A DNA stretch of 33,496 nt, taken from Pseudomonadota bacterium (GTDB lineage: Bacteria; Pseudomonadota; Gammaproteobacteria; Burkholderiales; Thiobacillaceae). Positions within the stretch are counted from its first letter, which is position 1. Each line of letters opens with the position of its first letter. Location of the stretch: contig JAUYFG010000121.1 in the NCBI GenBank assembly GCA_030690985.1, positions 1 through 33,496 on the forward strand, in the 5' to 3' direction. Below are positions 3,966 through 31,970 of this stretch, one piece after another. The translations under genes and the position numbers were made by a program. The notes beneath the pieces are model-generated. The model saw nothing but the letters and a program-made list of their open reading frames with translations, did no database searches and was not told the origin of the DNA.

Positions 3966-4949
3966 ATGACGGATTCAGCCAGCATTAGCGTTTCCCTGAT
4001 CGCCCCCATCTATAACGAGCAGGAAAACCTGCCCGATCTGGTGGACAAGGTCGAAGCCGTGATGTCGGCGCAGGAGAAAAGCTGGGAGTTCATCTGCGTC
4101 GACGACGGTTCGCGTGACGGCTCCGACACCCTGCTGGTGGAACTGGCGGCGACCCGCCCCTGGCTTCGCCCCTTGTTTCTGCGTCGCAACTACGGCCAGT
4201 CCACCGCCATGCAGGCCGGTTTCGACGCGGCGCGCGGCGAGGTGCTGGTGACCATCGACGGCGACATGCAGAACGACCCGGCCGACATTCCGCGCCTGCT
4301 GGACATGCTCGATGCCCGTCCCGAGGTGGACATCATTTCCGGCTGGCGGAAGAACCGCAAAGACAAGGCGCTGCTGCGTAAATTTCCCTCCAAGATCGCC
4401 AACCGCCTGATTTCCAAGGTCACCGGCGTGAACCTGCACGACTATGGCTGTTCGCTGAAGCTGTACCGGCGCGAGGCGGTGCGCTACGTGAAGATCTATG
4501 GCGAGCTGCACCGCTTCATCCCGGCGCTGGCGCACGAATACGGCGCCCGGGTGATGGAGACCGAGGTCAACCACTTCCCGCGCACCAAGGGTGTTTCCAA
4601 ATACGGCATCGACCGCACCATCCGCGTGCTGCTCGACCTGATCTGGGTGAAATTCATGCTGCGTTTTCTGCATCGCCCGCTGCATGCCTTCGGCGGCATC
4701 GGCGCGGCGATGTTCTTCCCCGGTCTCCTGATCCTGCTCTACCTGGCCGGATACAAGCTGTTTTCCCACGCCGACATCGGTGGCCGCCCGCTGCTGCAAC
4801 TGGGCGTGATGTTCACCCTGATGGGCGCGAACTTCATCGGCATGGGCATCCTGGGCGAACTGCTCACCCGCATCTGGCATGAGCCCGGCGGCAAGGCGCA
4901 GTACCTGTTGCGTGAAGCCTCTTCGCTGCGCGAGCCGCCCCACGAATGA
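3966..4949 (+). CDS. GT2 family, ArnC/dolichyl-P-mannose synthase-like glycosyltransferase with C-terminal TM helices
   Basis: SLIAPIYNEQENLPDLV, DDGSRDGS, TIDGDMQNDPADIP motifs. Confidence 0.9.
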   Translation: MTDSASISVSLIAPIYNEQENLPDLVDKVEAVMSAQEKSWEFICVDDGSRDGSDTLLVELAATRPWLRPLFLRRNYGQSTAMQAGFDAARGEVLVTIDGDMQNDPADIPRLLDMLDARPEVDIISGWRKNRKDKALLRKFPSKIANRLISKVTGVNLHDYGCSLKLYRREAVRYVKIYGELHRFIPALAHEYGARVMETEVNHFPRTKGVSKYGIDRTIRVLLDLIWVKFMLRFLHRPLHAFGGIGAAMFFPGLLILLYLAGYKLFSHADIGGRPLLQLGVMFTLMGANFIGMGILGELLTRIWHEPGGKAQYLLREASSLREPPHE

Positions 4950-6457
4950 GACTGGATCGCCTGCTCCTGGCGGTCCTGGTGCTGTTCCCGTTTCTGGCTC
5001 TGGGAACCCCGCCGCTGTTCGACCTGGATGAAGGCGCTTTCACCGCCTCCACCACGGAGATGTTCCTGCGGGGCGACTTTCTCTCCAGCTATCTGCTGGG
5101 CGAGCCGCGCCACGACAAACCCATCCTGATCTACTGGCTCCAGGCTGCATCGGTGAGCCTGCTGGGCAGTAGCGAGTTCACCTGGCGACTACCTTCCGCC
5201 CTGGCCTCCAGCCTGTGGATACTCGCCACCTATGGTTTCGTCAGCCGGGTGCGCGACCGCCAGGCAGGTCTTGCCGCCGCTTTGATCATCGCCACGGCGG
5301 CGGGACTGACCATCATCACGCGGGCGGCGACGGCCGATGCCCTGCTCAATCTTTTCCTCGCCGGCGCCGGCTATGCCACCTGGCTCTGGCTGCGCGAGCG
5401 CGAGCAGCGTTGGCTCTACGCGGCTTGGGCTGCGATGGCTCTGGGCTTTCTTGCCAAGGGGCCGATTGCGTTATTGATCCCGGTCGGCACTTTGTTCCTC
5501 TGGTGCGCCACCCGCCGAGACTGGCGTTCGTTCCGCTCCTGGGCACTGGCACCGGGACCCGTGCTGCTGTTCCTGGCGGTAGCGTTGCCCTGGTTCGTCA
5601 TCCAGACAGGGAACGAAGGCCCCGGCTTTCTGGCCGGTTTCTTTTTCAAACACAACCTGGCGCGCTTCGACACCCCCATGGAAGGGCATGGCGGCAATCC
5701 CTTCTACTATGTGCCGGTGGTGCTGATCTCGCTGTTGCCGCATACGGGACTATTGCTGGTCGCGCTGGCCCGCCTGAAAACAATCTGGCGCGATGAATTG
5801 TTGCGCTTCGGGCTACTCTGGTTCCTGCTCGCCTTCGTGGCGTTTTCCTTCTCCGGCACCAAGCTGCCGCATTACATTTATTACGGCTATGGCGGCCTGG
5901 TCCTGATTCTGGCCGCCCAGGCAGAACACCAAGCCTCGCGCTGGCTGCTGGCCATCACCGGCGCCATCACCTTCGCCCTGTTGCTGGCCGTGCCCAGCCT
6001 GCTCGATCAGGCACTGCCCAGGCTGAAACCGGACGATTTGCTCCTGGCCCAGGATATCGGCAGCCATTTCGGCCTGGGCTACTGGCTGTGGTGCGCTGCC
6101 GCCCTGGTCGTCAGTCTGCTGCCGTTGCTGCTGCGGCCGCTGACGACCCGCTTCGCGCTCTACGGCAATGGCCTGCTGGCGGGGGCGACCATGGCTTTCT
6201 TTTTGCTTCCCATCGTCGGCCAGGTGCAACAGGGGCCGGTGAAGAAAGCCGGCTTGCTCGCCCGCGACCTTTCCGGCCCGCTCCTGCTGCATGGCATCAA
6301 CACCCCCAGCTTCCAGACTTATGCCGGGCGTCGCGTGGAGAAACGCCCCGCCCGCACGGGCGATCTGGTACTGACCCGGGAAAGCCGTCTGGCCGAACTG
6401 CCCGCTACCGAGGTGGTGTTCCGCGAGCGCAGCTATGTGCTGGCGAGGGTGAAATGA
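4946..6457 (+). CDS. ArnT-like lipid-linked glycosyltransferase (PMT/GT39/GT83 superfamily)
   Basis: LFDLDEGAFTASTTEMFLRGDF...GEPRHDKPILIYWLQAASVSLLG; multi-TM; ATGA overlap with upstream gene. Confidence 0.88.
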   Translation: MRLDRLLLAVLVLFPFLALGTPPLFDLDEGAFTASTTEMFLRGDFLSSYLLGEPRHDKPILIYWLQAASVSLLGSSEFTWRLPSALASSLWILATYGFVSRVRDRQAGLAAALIIATAAGLTIITRAATADALLNLFLAGAGYATWLWLREREQRWLYAAWAAMALGFLAKGPIALLIPVGTLFLWCATRRDWRSFRSWALAPGPVLLFLAVALPWFVIQTGNEGPGFLAGFFFKHNLARFDTPMEGHGGNPFYYVPVVLISLLPHTGLLLVALARLKTIWRDELLRFGLLWFLLAFVAFSFSGTKLPHYIYYGYGGLVLILAAQAEHQASRWLLAITGAITFALLLAVPSLLDQALPRLKPDDLLLAQDIGSHFGLGYWLWCAAALVVSLLPLLLRPLTTRFALYGNGLLAGATMAFFLLPIVGQVQQGPVKKAGLLARDLSGPLLLHGINTPSFQTYAGRRVEKRPARTGDLVLTRESRLAELPATEVVFRERSYVLARVK

Positions 6458-7212
6458 AAAGAAGCCAGCCGATCGCGCTCTGGCTGCTCCCGGCTCTCGC
6501 GCTGCTGGCCATGCTGCCGATGAGCGAGCCGGCACGCAACCAGGCGATGTTTCTGGCGCTCAATCACGCGGTGGCGCGCTTGCCGGATGTGCTCTGGTCC
6601 GACCTGACCGTGTTGGGCGACACCCTGGTAGCACTCACGCTGTTGCTGTTTTTTCTGCGGCGCCGCCCCGATCTGGCGCTGGCCGTGCTGCTCGCCAGCC
6701 TGCCCGCAACGCTGCTCTCGCACGGGCTCAAGGATGGCCTGGACATGGCGCGCCCCTACGCGGTGCTGGGTGACCAGGTCCATGTCATCGGCCGCTATCT
6801 GACTGCGGGTTCCTTCCCCTCCGGCCACACCACCACCACGTTCGTGCTTGCCGCCGTATTGATCGGCGGCCTGCGTTCCGCGACCGCCACGTTCTGGATT
6901 CTGCTTGCCGCGCTGCTGGTGGGTTTCTCCCGCATCGCCGTGGGCGCGCACTGGCCGCTCGATGTGCTGGGCGGTCTTTTGTGCGGCTGGGCCTCCGGCC
7001 TGTTCGGGCTGTATTGGGCACAACGAGTGGATTGGGCGCCCCGGCCCCGCGTGCAACTCGCCCTGCGCCTGCTGTTGATCGCCGGCGCCGGCGCGCTCTT
7101 GCTTGACTACAACAGCGGCTACCCACTGGCACGAGCCTTCGAGCAGGGGGTCGCGGTACTGGCATTGGCGGTCAATCTGCTGCCCGGCTGGAACATGCGC
7201 AGAGCAACATGA
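6454..7212 (+). CDS. PAP2-family phosphatase
   Basis: KDGLDMARP, SFPSGHTTTTF and SRIAVGAHWPLDVLGG motifs; ATGA overlap with upstream gene. Confidence 0.9.
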   Translation: MKRSQPIALWLLPALALLAMLPMSEPARNQAMFLALNHAVARLPDVLWSDLTVLGDTLVALTLLLFFLRRRPDLALAVLLASLPATLLSHGLKDGLDMARPYAVLGDQVHVIGRYLTAGSFPSGHTTTTFVLAAVLIGGLRSATATFWILLAALLVGFSRIAVGAHWPLDVLGGLLCGWASGLFGLYWAQRVDWAPRPRVQLALRLLLIAGAGALLLDYNSGYPLARAFEQGVAVLALAVNLLPGWNMRRAT

Positions 7213-8828
7213 GCACGGCCTCCCGCGCGCCGCTGCTGCTCCTCTCCCTGGGCCTGCTGGTACTCTGGCGGCTGCTGGCAGCCTGGCATGGCAACATCGA
7301 GCTGTATGCCGACGAGGCGCAATACTGGACCTGGGCGCTGCAACCGGATTGGGGCTATTTTTCCAAGCCGCCCATGGTGGCCTGGGCGATCTGGCTTTCT
7401 CGCACGCTGTTCGGCGACGCTGAAATCGGTGTGCGCGCGATTTCGCTGCTGCTCTATCCGGTGACGGCCTGGGTGCTGTTTCTCCTGGTGCGGCGTTTGT
7501 TCAAGACGCATCCGCAACGGGAAGACATGGCGTTCTGGAGCGCCCTCACCTTCGCCACCCTACCCCTGGTTTCGCTCGGCTCCTGGCTGATCACCACCGA
7601 TGCCGTGCTGTTGCTGTTCTGGAGCCTGTCGCTCTATTTCACCGTCGCCGCCCTGGAAAGCGGGCGCTGGCGCGACTGGCTGCTGCTGGGCTGCGCGCTC
7701 GGCGCGGGCTTCATGTCCAAGTACAGCATGGTGTTCTACGGCCTCGGTTTCCTCGCCTGGCTGCTGCTCATGCCGCGACAACGCAAACTGCTGCGTGACC
7801 CGCGCCCCTATGCGGCGGCGGCGGTTGCCCTGCTGTTGCTGGCGCCCAATCTGATCTGGAACGCGCGGCACGATTTCGTCAGCGTCCAGCACACCGCCGA
7901 AATCTCGCAACTGGATCGCGGCCTGTTTCATCCCGGCGCCATGCTGGAATTCGTGCTTGGCCAGTTCCTGGTATTCGGGCCTTTGCTCTTCGCCGGCCTC
8001 ATGCTCCTGGTGTTGCGCCCGCGTACCTGGCTCGACGACGAACGCCTGCGCCTGCTCGCCGCCTTCACCCTGGCCCCCCTGGCCGCCTTCATGGCTTTAA
8101 GCCTGCTGTCTCGCGCCTTCGCCAACTGGGCGGCCTTCGCCTACGTCGGCGGCGCCGCCCTGATCGCTGCGGTGTGGGTCGCACAGGGCCACCGCCGCTG
8201 GCTGATCGCCGCGCTGGCGTTGCACCTGGCCATGGCCGCCGCGATGTACCACGCGCACGACATCACCCGGGCACTCGATATTCAGCTCACCCGCAAGACC
8301 GACCCCTATGGCCGCGTTACCGGCTACCGCGAACTGGGCCGTGAAGTCGCGCTGCGTCTGCAAATCCACCCCGAGGCGCGCCTGCTCAGCAACGACCGTA
8401 AGCTGCACGCCCTGCTGCGCTATTACGCGCGTCCCGGAAGCGAGGGGATGCGCTACCTGAATCCAAACGGCACGCGTGATAACCACTACGCCCTGAGCGC
8501 CGATCTGCGCGACAGCCCGAAGGGTGAGTTTCTGCTGGTCAGCCAGGGAGTGGAGGCGCGACAACTGGCCGCCTGGTTCGCTCAAGTGACGCCACAGGCG
8601 CCGATCCGTCTCAACCTCTACCCGGATTACCAGCCGGAATATCAGGTCTGGCTGCTGCGTGATTACCGGCAAGTAGCGCCGGCATGCCCGCAAGGGGTAG
8701 GCCGTGGTTGTAATGCCGCCCAAACCCCGGCGGCAACAACCACGCTCTCCTTGCCGGCCCCGTCCAGCCACCCCAAAGACGCCGGCAGGGATGCCGGCGC
8801 TACAAACCCACCGAGGAGTCCAGGGTGA
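7209..8828 (+). CDS. ArnT/GT39-like glycosyltransferase with a repeat-derived C-terminal tail
   Basis: ELYADEAQYWTWALQPDWGYFSKPPMVAWAIW motif; multi-TM; tail after LLRDYRQ is encoded by GTAG palindromes. Confidence 0.88.
   Translation: MSTASRAPLLLLSLGLLVLWRLLAAWHGNIELYADEAQYWTWALQPDWGYFSKPPMVAWAIWLSRTLFGDAEIGVRAISLLLYPVTAWVLFLLVRRLFKTHPQREDMAFWSALTFATLPLVSLGSWLITTDAVLLLFWSLSLYFTVAALESGRWRDWLLLGCALGAGFMSKYSMVFYGLGFLAWLLLMPRQRKLLRDPRPYAAAAVALLLLAPNLIWNARHDFVSVQHTAEISQLDRGLFHPGAMLEFVLGQFLVFGPLLFAGLMLLVLRPRTWLDDERLRLLAAFTLAPLAAFMALSLLSRAFANWAAFAYVGGAALIAAVWVAQGHRRWLIAALALHLAMAAAMYHAHDITRALDIQLTRKTDPYGRVTGYRELGREVALRLQIHPEARLLSNDRKLHALLRYYARPGSEGMRYLNPNGTRDNHYALSADLRDSPKGEFLLVSQGVEARQLAAWFAQVTPQAPIRLNLYPDYQPEYQVWLLRDYRQVAPACPQGVGRGCNAAQTPAATTTLSLPAPSSHPKDAGRDAGATNPPRSPG
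8673..8803. repeat. Composite GTAG palindrome region (GTAGCGCCGGCATGCCCGC ... GCCGGCAGGGATGCCGGCGCTAC), with an internal GTAGGCCGTGGTTGT/ACAACCACG hairpin at 8697-8744
   Basis: Outer ends are GTAGCGCCGGCAT and ATGCCGGCGCTAC in inverted orientation; inner stem GCCGTGGTTGT/ACAACCACG. Confidence 0.75.
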
Positions 8829-9508
8829 ACAGCTCCCTGCCCTCCCCACGCATTCTGGCCGCCTCCGCGCTGGCCTTCACCCTGATCTTCCTGGCTTTCC
8901 CGCAACTCGACCTGATCGCCAACGGCGTTTTTTACAGCCCGCAGCACGGCTTTCTACTGACCGGGAATGTGCTGTTCGACACGCTACGTGCCTATCTCGG
9001 CATTCTGGTCATCGCGCTGCTGGCCACACCTGTGGTGGTCTGGGGACTCTCGAAGCGCGCGAAAAATAGTGAGGAATGGCGCGCACGCCGTCCCGCCGCC
9101 CTGTTCCTTGCGCTGTCTCTGCTGCTCGGCCCGGGCCTCCTGGTCAACACCGTGTTCAAAGATCACTGGGGGCGCGCCCGTCCCTCCCAGATCGAAGCGT
9201 TCGGCGGCACGGCACGCTTCACTCCCGCCTGGGTGATAAGCGACCAATGCCACAAGAACTGCTCTTTCGTCTGCGGTGACGCCTCGGTGGGATTCGCGCT
9301 GCTCGCCATCGCCTTCGTCAGCCGCCGCCCACGCCTCTGGCTGTTTGTCGGTCTCGTCACCGGCTCGGCCCTGGGCCTGATGCGCATGGGCCAGGGTGGA
9401 CACTTTTTCAGCGACGTCATCTTTTCCTTCTACAGCGTCTATTTCGCCGCCTGGGCCTTGCACCGCTTTATGACGCGGGGCGGGCGGCCTATGTTTCCTC
9501 TCGACTAA
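8825..9508 (+). CDS. PAP2-family phosphatase, LpxE/LpxF-like subtype; GTG start overlapping upstream stop
   Basis: KDHWGRARPSQIEAFGG, CHKNCSFVCGDASVGF, RMGQGGHFFSDVI. Confidence 0.82.
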   Translation: MNSSLPSPRILAASALAFTLIFLAFPQLDLIANGVFYSPQHGFLLTGNVLFDTLRAYLGILVIALLATPVVVWGLSKRAKNSEEWRARRPAALFLALSLLLGPGLLVNTVFKDHWGRARPSQIEAFGGTARFTPAWVISDQCHKNCSFVCGDASVGFALLAIAFVSRRPRLWLFVGLVTGSALGLMRMGQGGHFFSDVIFSFYSVYFAAWALHRFMTRGGRPMFPLD

Positions 9509-12106: not shown

Positions 12107-12132
12107 CGACTCGGCATCGAGACGCAGCACCC

Positions 12133-12228
12133 GTAGGGCGGAAAAGCCGGCGGCCTTTTGCCGGCGCCTTCCGCCATCTTCCGGTGGCATTCGGCGGAAG
12201 GCGCGATAAGGCCGCTTTTCCGCCCTAC
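12133..12228. repeat. Family D GTAG bipartite palindrome, copy 1 (96 bp)
   Basis: GTAGGGCGGAAAAGCCGGCGGCC...GGCCGCTTTTCCGCCCTAC; about 94/96 identical to copy 2 by eye. Confidence 0.95.
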
Positions 12229-12312
12229 GCGGGGTTACACCAAGCCCCCCACCCGCGCCCAACATGGCTTTCCTGAGTGCCTCGTCGTTGCTGGCCAGGG
12301 GCAACCCTTCGC

Positions 12313-12408
12313 GTAGGGCGGAAAAGCCGGCGGCCTTTTGCCGGCGCCTTCCGCCATCTTCCGGCGGCATGCGGCGGAAGGCGCGATAAGGCCGCTTTTC
12401 CGCCCTAC
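12313..12408. repeat. Family D GTAG bipartite palindrome, copy 2 (96 bp), same orientation as copy 1
   Basis: Near-identical to 12133-12228. Confidence 0.95.
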
Positions 12409-12412
12409 GGTA

Positions 12413-17233: not shown

Positions 17234-17323
17234 CCGTCATTCCCGCGAAAGCGGGAATCCAGTTCATTCATCAAACTGCAATCAGAGTTACAAACTGGAT
17301 TCCCGCTTTCGCGGGAATGACGG
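17234..17323. repeat. Inverted repeat CCGTCATTCCCGCGAAAGCGGGAATCCAG...CTGGATTCCCGCTTTCGCGGGAATGACGG in the hisI-hisE gap
   Basis: Long near-perfect inverted arms; different family from GTAG elements; similar unit at 31971-32037. Confidence 0.95.
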
Positions 17324-29207: not shown

Positions 29208-29257
29208 GTAGGGTGCGCCATGCGCACCTCCCTAATGGTGCGCATGGCGCACCCTAC
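29208..29257. repeat. Family B GTAG palindrome in orf65-nifW gap
   Basis: GTAGGGTGCGCCATGCGCACC...GGTGCGCATGGCGCACCCTAC. Confidence 0.95.
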
Positions 29258-30141: not shown

Positions 30142-30152
30142 CGCACGGAATC

Positions 30153-30228
30153 GTAGGTTGGGCAAAGCGAAGCGTGCCCAACATTGCAACGGTGGCTTGT
30201 TGGGCACGCTTCGCTTTGCCCAACCTAC
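30153..30228. repeat. Family E GTAG palindrome in nifZ-nifM gap
   Basis: GTAGGTTGGGCAAAGCGAAGCGTGCCCAAC...GTTGGGCACGCTTCGCTTTGCCCAACCTAC. Confidence 0.97.
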
Positions 30229-30247
30229 AAAACCCTGACAGCCTCCC

Positions 30248-31542: not shown

Positions 31543-31713
31543 TGAGCCCTCTGTAGCGCCGGCTGATGCAGCCCCTACAGTCTCAGCACGAACGGAACAG
31601 GTCGATCCTGGAAATACCGGCTTACCGCGTCCTGGTCACTGGGATAGCGCATGGCTACAGGCGCTGGAGGCCATAAGGACGCTCACCGTTTGGGTGAATC
31701 CGCGTGGCAAGCC

Positions 31714-31827
31714 GTAGGAGCGGGCTTGCCCGCGATTGGCGGCCGCTATCGCGGGCAGCGGAGTCGTTGCCGCTTCAGCGGCTTTACGAATCCGGCGTGC
31801 CCCTTGCGGGTGCAAGCCCGCTCCTAC
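31714..31827. repeat. GTAG palindrome, family G (GTAGGAGCGGGCTTGC...GCAAGCCCGCTCCTAC)
   Basis: Inverted terminal arms; resembles Pseudomonas-type REP sequences as I recall them. Confidence 0.92.
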
Positions 31828-31970
31828 GGCAACACGTTACCTACTACGAATCACATAGAGACTTTACCAAGGGCCTTTCGCCCTGAGCCAGTCGAAGCGG
31901 CTTGTTCGAGGCCCCCTCACGTAAAACCGTTTTAGTGACATACTTGCCGGCGATGAATACATACAGTGCC

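Follow-up and report, generated by a model that had tools for sequence, protein, structure and literature searches.

The 3' end of an ArnT-like glycosyltransferase gene carries a repeat-derived extension that retains the stop/start overlap with the following PAP2-family phosphatase gene. We are confident, though short of certain, that a GTAG-type REP/REPIN went into the final codon of the ArnT-like gene, was kept through its open frame and through translational coupling, and was later reshaped. The same event was found at other gene pairs, both in this genome and in relatives, which suggests that selection maintains the overlaps and makes protein tails, or even gene fusions, from repeats. The stretch of DNA that was analyzed, referred to as the window, is 33,496 nt long. 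The parts of the ArnT-like/PAP2 region described below lie on the forward strand, except for the composite repeat, which is given without strand, and its right REP, which is on the reverse strand.

The ArnT-like gene and its operon

The ArnT-like ORF (7209-8828, 539 aa) encodes a predicted membrane glycosyltransferase. Its conserved portion, codons 1-488 (7209-8672), matched PMT_2 (PF13231, Pfam E 2e-38). Against the ArnT equivalog NF009784 the protein scored 45 bits, below the cut-off of 567, and its predicted membership holds for the PMT_2 superfamily only. No solved structure for the protein was found in a search by sequence. After LLRDYRQ, the protein continues for 51 residues (VAPACPQGVGRGCNAAQTPAATTTLSLPAPSSHPKDAGRDAGATNPPRSPG), encoded together with the stop codon at 8673-8828. 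The final seven residues, NPPRSPG, have a source other than the repeat: they are encoded by a 21-nt spacer between the repeat and the PAP2 start (8804-8824), which contains a Shine-Dalgarno-like GAGGAG (8813-8818) and is similar in its right part to GGGGAATCCGGG in the sister genome G025.

The GTGA at 8825-8828 is the stop of the ArnT-like gene and the start of the PAP2-family phosphatase gene (8825-9508; PF01569, E 6e-14). The lipid A 4'-phosphatase LpxF appears to be the nearest assignment for the PAP2 protein, yet the score (167 bits against NF045633) was under the LpxF cut-off of 400. The starts in the operon are those of a glycosyltransferase (3966), a PMT_2 protein (4946), a PAP2 protein (6454), the ArnT-like protein (7209), the second PAP2 protein (8825), and a phosphorylase (9523). 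Four consecutive junctions are ATGA or GTGA overlaps, since ATGA is also found at 4946-4949, at 6454-6457, and at 7209-7212, where the ArnT-like gene meets the preceding PAP2 gene (6454-7212). A stop at 8672, giving no tail, would put 152 nt before the PAP2 start.

The first-pass annotation had proposed a tail of about 50 codons derived from a GTAG composite, a 4-bp GTGA overlap with the PAP2 gene like those at the other junctions of the operon, and an insert that kept the stop/start overlap. All three proposals stand: 51 residues follow base 8672, a GTAG REPIN occupies 8673-8803, and the GTGA closes the extended frame where outgroups have a direct ATGA. Preserved translational coupling at this junction, which had also been claimed, can be inferred from the preserved overlap.

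The repeat at 8673-8803

The repeat is a GTAG-tagged REPIN composite of 131 nt, consisting of two inverted REPs and belonging to a genome-wide family. Its arms, GTAGCGCCGGCATGCCCGC at 8673-8691 and GCAGGGATGCCGGCGCTAC at 8785-8803, both start with GTAGCGCCGGC, which gives an imperfect palindrome the 5' GTAG typical of these REPs. The right REP (GTAGCGCCGGCATCCCTGCCGGCGTC, 8778-8803) has exact matches elsewhere in the genome. The 19-mer of the arm was found twice in the window (0.03 expected by chance), and the DNA of the composite folded much better than shuffled sequences (z = -7.2). Within its own genome (G000), the composite gave 48 blast matches, and exact GTAGCGCMGGC..GCCKGCGCTAC inverted dimers numbered 216 against 0 in the control, in line with the high-copy dimers of REPINs. 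The composite sequence recurs in unrelated genes and between genes.

None of the four Y1_Tnp genes, inspected with flanks of ~1.5 kb, was flanked by a GTAGCGC REP, and the GTAG repeats near them were of other REP types. Three Y1-type transposase genes (L140, L141, and L143) lie near other GTAG families (GTAGGTTGGGC, GTAGGAGCGGGC) and are candidate family-specific RAYTs. Further GTAG-tagged or inverted-repeat families were observed in the window at 64-119, 12132-12409, 17234-17323, 29208-29257, 30144-30237, and 31711-31830, some of them overlapping ORFs. General selection of the element for being stop-free was considered and rejected, as open-frame counts in 12 copies were not clearly different from those in shuffles.

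Genome statistics were based on sampled stretches. For 45 sampled REPINs, the 3' ends of neighboring genes stopped before the repeat (38) or inside it (7); one 3' end read beyond, and two REPINs were located inside genes (NuoG-like and PFOR-like). A read-through tail is thus a minority outcome, most REPINs in this genome being placed after stop codons. Core-bearing copies were found in genes more often (7/22 vs 3/45, Fisher p 0.01, by a rough coding score and hand count); the core copies L002, L016, L017, and L021, near gene starts, were left out of the in-gene count because the true start may be downstream.

A nested 63-nt unit

The first-pass annotation can be refined on two points: the extension is probably older than this species and was reshaped more than once, and the REPIN in the window contains another unit nested in it. 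The unit is a hairpin of 63 nt (21 codons) in the loop of the left REP (8685-8747), recognized by comparison of copies and by empty sites in RibE and GluQ-RS. Subtracting it from the composite leaves a canonical 68-nt REPIN, and the window tail without it is still open to the GTGA. In the copies compared, the large composites proved to be ordinary REPINs carrying the unit (YACCCGC...CACGCTC) in one REP loop. Its length was exactly 63 nt in 20 of 24 distinct copies, and it was inserted between GGCA and TCCTTGCC, GGCG and TCTCGCC, or GGCT and TCCAGCC.

Exact in-frame insertions of 63 nt were found in riboflavin synthase (RibE), with an empty site in six relatives, and in GluQ-RS, in the opposite orientation and with an empty site in five relatives. 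Both are in-frame insertions with empty sites in unrelated conserved genes, in the manner of Rickettsia palindromic elements (RPEs). The target-site duplication that a classical MITE would leave was absent from both insertions. The stem of the RibE copy was kept by changes on both sides (GTGGTGGT..ACCACCAC vs GTGGTTGT..ACAACCAC). HrpA has an additional in-frame segment relative to its PDB homologue. The loci with in-frame insertions of the unit or of REPs were riboflavin synthase (L020), GluQ-RS (L011), HrpA (L019), and a hydantoinase-type gene with two copies (L013). A relative of the unit was also seen ahead of an IlvB-like gene, upstream of the likely ilvB start (L021).

The unit was detected in 4 of 117 family genomes; of the 399 order genomes sampled, 2 had it, and these belong to the source genus. 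A slightly different probe detected it in 5 of 23 genus genomes. Among the family and sampled order genomes, it was found only in the source genus. No credible match to an Rfam family was obtained for the unit, and a search for plasmid spread gave no match. The movement of the unit would be separate from that of REPs, precise, and without duplication. We tentatively propose, at slightly less than even confidence, that the genus has a frame-neutral mobile 63-nt unit inserting precisely, without duplication and in either orientation, into REP loops and genes, and that the unit and REPINs recurrently land at stop/start overlaps, where selection for coupling yields tails and occasional fusions of essential enzymes (MurB-Ddl).

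The ArnT-like/PAP2 junction in relatives

Orthologues of the ArnT-like gene were searched for in genome contigs, giving 79 loci, most of which align only to residue ~487/488. Outgroup orthologues from the same family end in DYRxP or similar, one residue past the shared codon, with a direct ATGA overlap; the repeat-free junctions of this ancestral type are L031, L034, L038-L042, and L044. The comparison of orthologous C-termini, which had been suggested as a check, gave the result expected from an insertion, and a palindrome-free orthologue with a similar conserved tail was sought in the outgroups and not found. The tail shares one open frame with the enzyme, as would a conserved functional domain whose likeness to the repeat is only apparent; that hypothesis was rejected from the orthologue comparison and is extremely improbable, since outgroups have no tail, in-genus tails vary in length and sequence, and the tail sequence also occurs in unrelated genes and between genes.

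Short GTAG-type remnants were found at the same codon in G029 (tail GTAGCACCGGCGCTAC.., 12 aa), G012 (GTAGTGCCGGCGCCAC.., 14 aa), and G021 (GTAGCGCCGTCGCCGGCG.., 9 aa). G025, the sister genome (90% identical, support 100/98), has a tail of 7 aa (GCCGCGCCGGGGAATCCGGG) and is without the large element; the tail in G024 is 8 aa long. Each of these five extended tails reaches the PAP2 start, and those of G012 and G029 are alignable past the palindrome. The tail in the genus is variable and repeat-derived rather than conserved, and what sits at this codon is mostly remnants of GTAG repeats. A single clade of the REP-bearing loci alone was rejected (AU test, p 0.002), because the window genome has the repeat-poor G025 as its sister. 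The extended set as one clade was not rejected (p-AU 0.145), so that an extension older than this species, followed by repeated reshaping, is likely but not proven.

Repeats at the murB/ddl and histidine-kinase/response-regulator junctions

The composite was also found between MurB and Ddl in the window genome, where the two form a single in-frame ORF of 655 aa with a REP-encoded linker (L010, G000:C128, 574-2538). The original ddl start has been lost in this fusion, and no other MurB or Ddl was found in G000. G025 has the full composite at the same murB codon, and the ATGA at the end of its murB still covers the ddl start. G021 carries a different REP, and its two genes overlap by 8 bp; G024 has a second in-frame MurB-Ddl fusion, again with a different REP; in G029, MurB overlaps a longer ddl. 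The repeat-free junctions of G011, G018, G026, and G031 have the murB stop on the ddl start. Differing REP types are thus found at one murB codon (G025/G000, G021, and G024).

The histidine-kinase/response-regulator (HK/RR) case was drawn from the unbiased sample of 45 REPINs. In G000, the closing ATGGCTGA of the kinase tail overlaps the start of the regulator, and differing GTAG-type elements were found at the same HK codon in G025, G021, G012 (with the 63-nt unit), and G029. The 8-bp HK/RR overlap in these five genomes is identical to that of the repeat-free G011/G018, and the inter-gene lengths (94, 49, 43, 106, and 49 with GTAG elements; 7 in G011/G018) are all 1 mod 3. G024 is the exception, with HK and RR 102 nt apart; kinase and regulator are separated there by a REPIN together with a second copy of the ATGGCTGA segment (L234), with possible mini-ORFs between the two genes.

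Weighing of explanations

Each junction taken singly is compatible with chance, and an open frame of the length of the tail at the window junction is unsurprising alone (P = 0.34, i.e. open in 34% of shuffles), so the case for the tail takes its weight from the orthologues and from the recurrence at other junctions. The tail could be a neutral by-product of an insertion near the stop, with the frame open by chance and PAP2 translated from its own Shine-Dalgarno sequence. The GAGGAG is in keeping with this and speaks against the coupling account, as PAP2 may start without coupling; so does the HK/RR separation in G024, which implies that uncoupling is tolerable. The 3' ends that stop before or inside the sampled REPINs, and the search that found no transposase flanked by this REP type among the four Y1_Tnp genes, also count against the insertion account. 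In favor of coupling, published reporter tests show it nearly abolished at distances of ~20 nt (PMC10666635), against the 152 nt that would separate the genes here without the tail. All other extended junctions at the three loci reach the downstream start, and the HK/RR frame is kept at every inter-gene length. The joint shuffle probability of all 18 extended junctions being open was ~7e-5 with relatedness ignored, a pointer and not a test because the junction sequences are related. On this evidence, a neutral by-product is rather unlikely.

The differing REP types at the same murB codon and the differing elements at the same HK codon would fit a hotspot at stop/start overlaps that received insertions repeatedly and independently, as opposed to a single old insertion at each junction with later reshaping. 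The alignable tails of G012 and G029 and the extended set that was not rejected as one clade count against a hotspot, as does the possibility that REP types were exchanged in situ by gene conversion; we find the hotspot doubtful. Assembly or binning artefacts might be expected to produce fused or extended ORFs in a metagenome-type genome of 314 contigs with a contamination of 5.28%, but the same junction types occur in the independent genomes G012, G021, G024, G025, and G029 and the flanks are orthologous on both sides, making artefacts very unlikely.

The insertion and reshaping account would run as follows. A GTAG-type REP/REPIN, a non-autonomous palindrome presumably mobilized by a Y1/RAYT-like transposase, would have entered the last ArnT-like codon, just before the ATGA/PAP2 overlap. 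It would have survived because ribosomes read through it in a phase that avoids the TAG of GTAG, and because the extended frame again terminates on the PAP2 start codon. The glycosyltransferase would thereby gain a dispensable low-complexity tail, presumably made and harmless, and PAP2 would stay within reach of terminating ribosomes. The repeat would later have been reshaped, collapsing in relatives and here being enlarged by the frame-neutral 63-nt hairpin unit in the REP loop. Selection for termination-reinitiation may have filtered insertions in the same way at murB/ddl and HK/RR, with an in-frame MurB-REP-Ddl ORF resulting in two genomes. Of this account, the sequences demonstrate the identity of the repeat, its insertion as compared with the outgroup orthologues, the overlaps that persist, and the nested unit with its empty sites; the transposase, the selection for coupling, and a tail that is made and harmless are inferences.

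Relation to known systems and significance

GTAG REPs inside genes, including some where a coding region ends, were described by Di Nocera et al. 2013 (PMC3733652), and the main survey regards intragenic REPs as insertions that chanced to be tolerated. The repeats here share with known GTAG REPs/REPINs (PMC3733652; RAYT paper, PMC2817692) the GTAG tag, the imperfect palindrome, inverted dimers, the high copy number, and a location mostly adjoining gene 3' ends with some intragenic copies. Unlike those, the repeat lies at a stop/start overlap that is kept, recurs at one codon across several species, and holds a nested 63-nt unit, and a matching transposase gene was not found among the four Y1_Tnp genes. 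As summarized in PMC10969869, RPEs are the classic coding palindromes (Ogata 2000, 2002), mobile elements that entered many conserved genes of unrelated kinds in frame and are retained as extra peptides; the present case differs in the bacterial group, in the occurrence of the 63-nt unit also in REP hairpin loops, and in the use of operon junctions. REP-targeting insertion sequences (PMC1525189; ISPpu9, PMC8450116) are likewise mobile sequences lodged in REPs, whereas the 63-nt unit is without a transposase and gave no target duplication at two resolved empty sites. ATGA-type 4-bp overlaps in operons are known from translational coupling of overlapping genes (PMC6728339, PMC10666635), but here the overlap has persisted, or has been restored, across a repeat insertion. 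No prior description of recurrent overlap-keeping insertion at operon junctions, of the MurB-Ddl joining, or of the frame-neutral 63-nt unit was found in the open-access papers searched.

Orthologous junctions that carry differing repeats and almost always keep the overlap constitute a natural experiment on the strength of selection for coupling. The MurB-REP-Ddl ORF shows a route by which two overlapping genes can become one protein with both enzymes fused, and the 63-nt unit, with its clean empty sites, offers a simple system for how tiny elements move.
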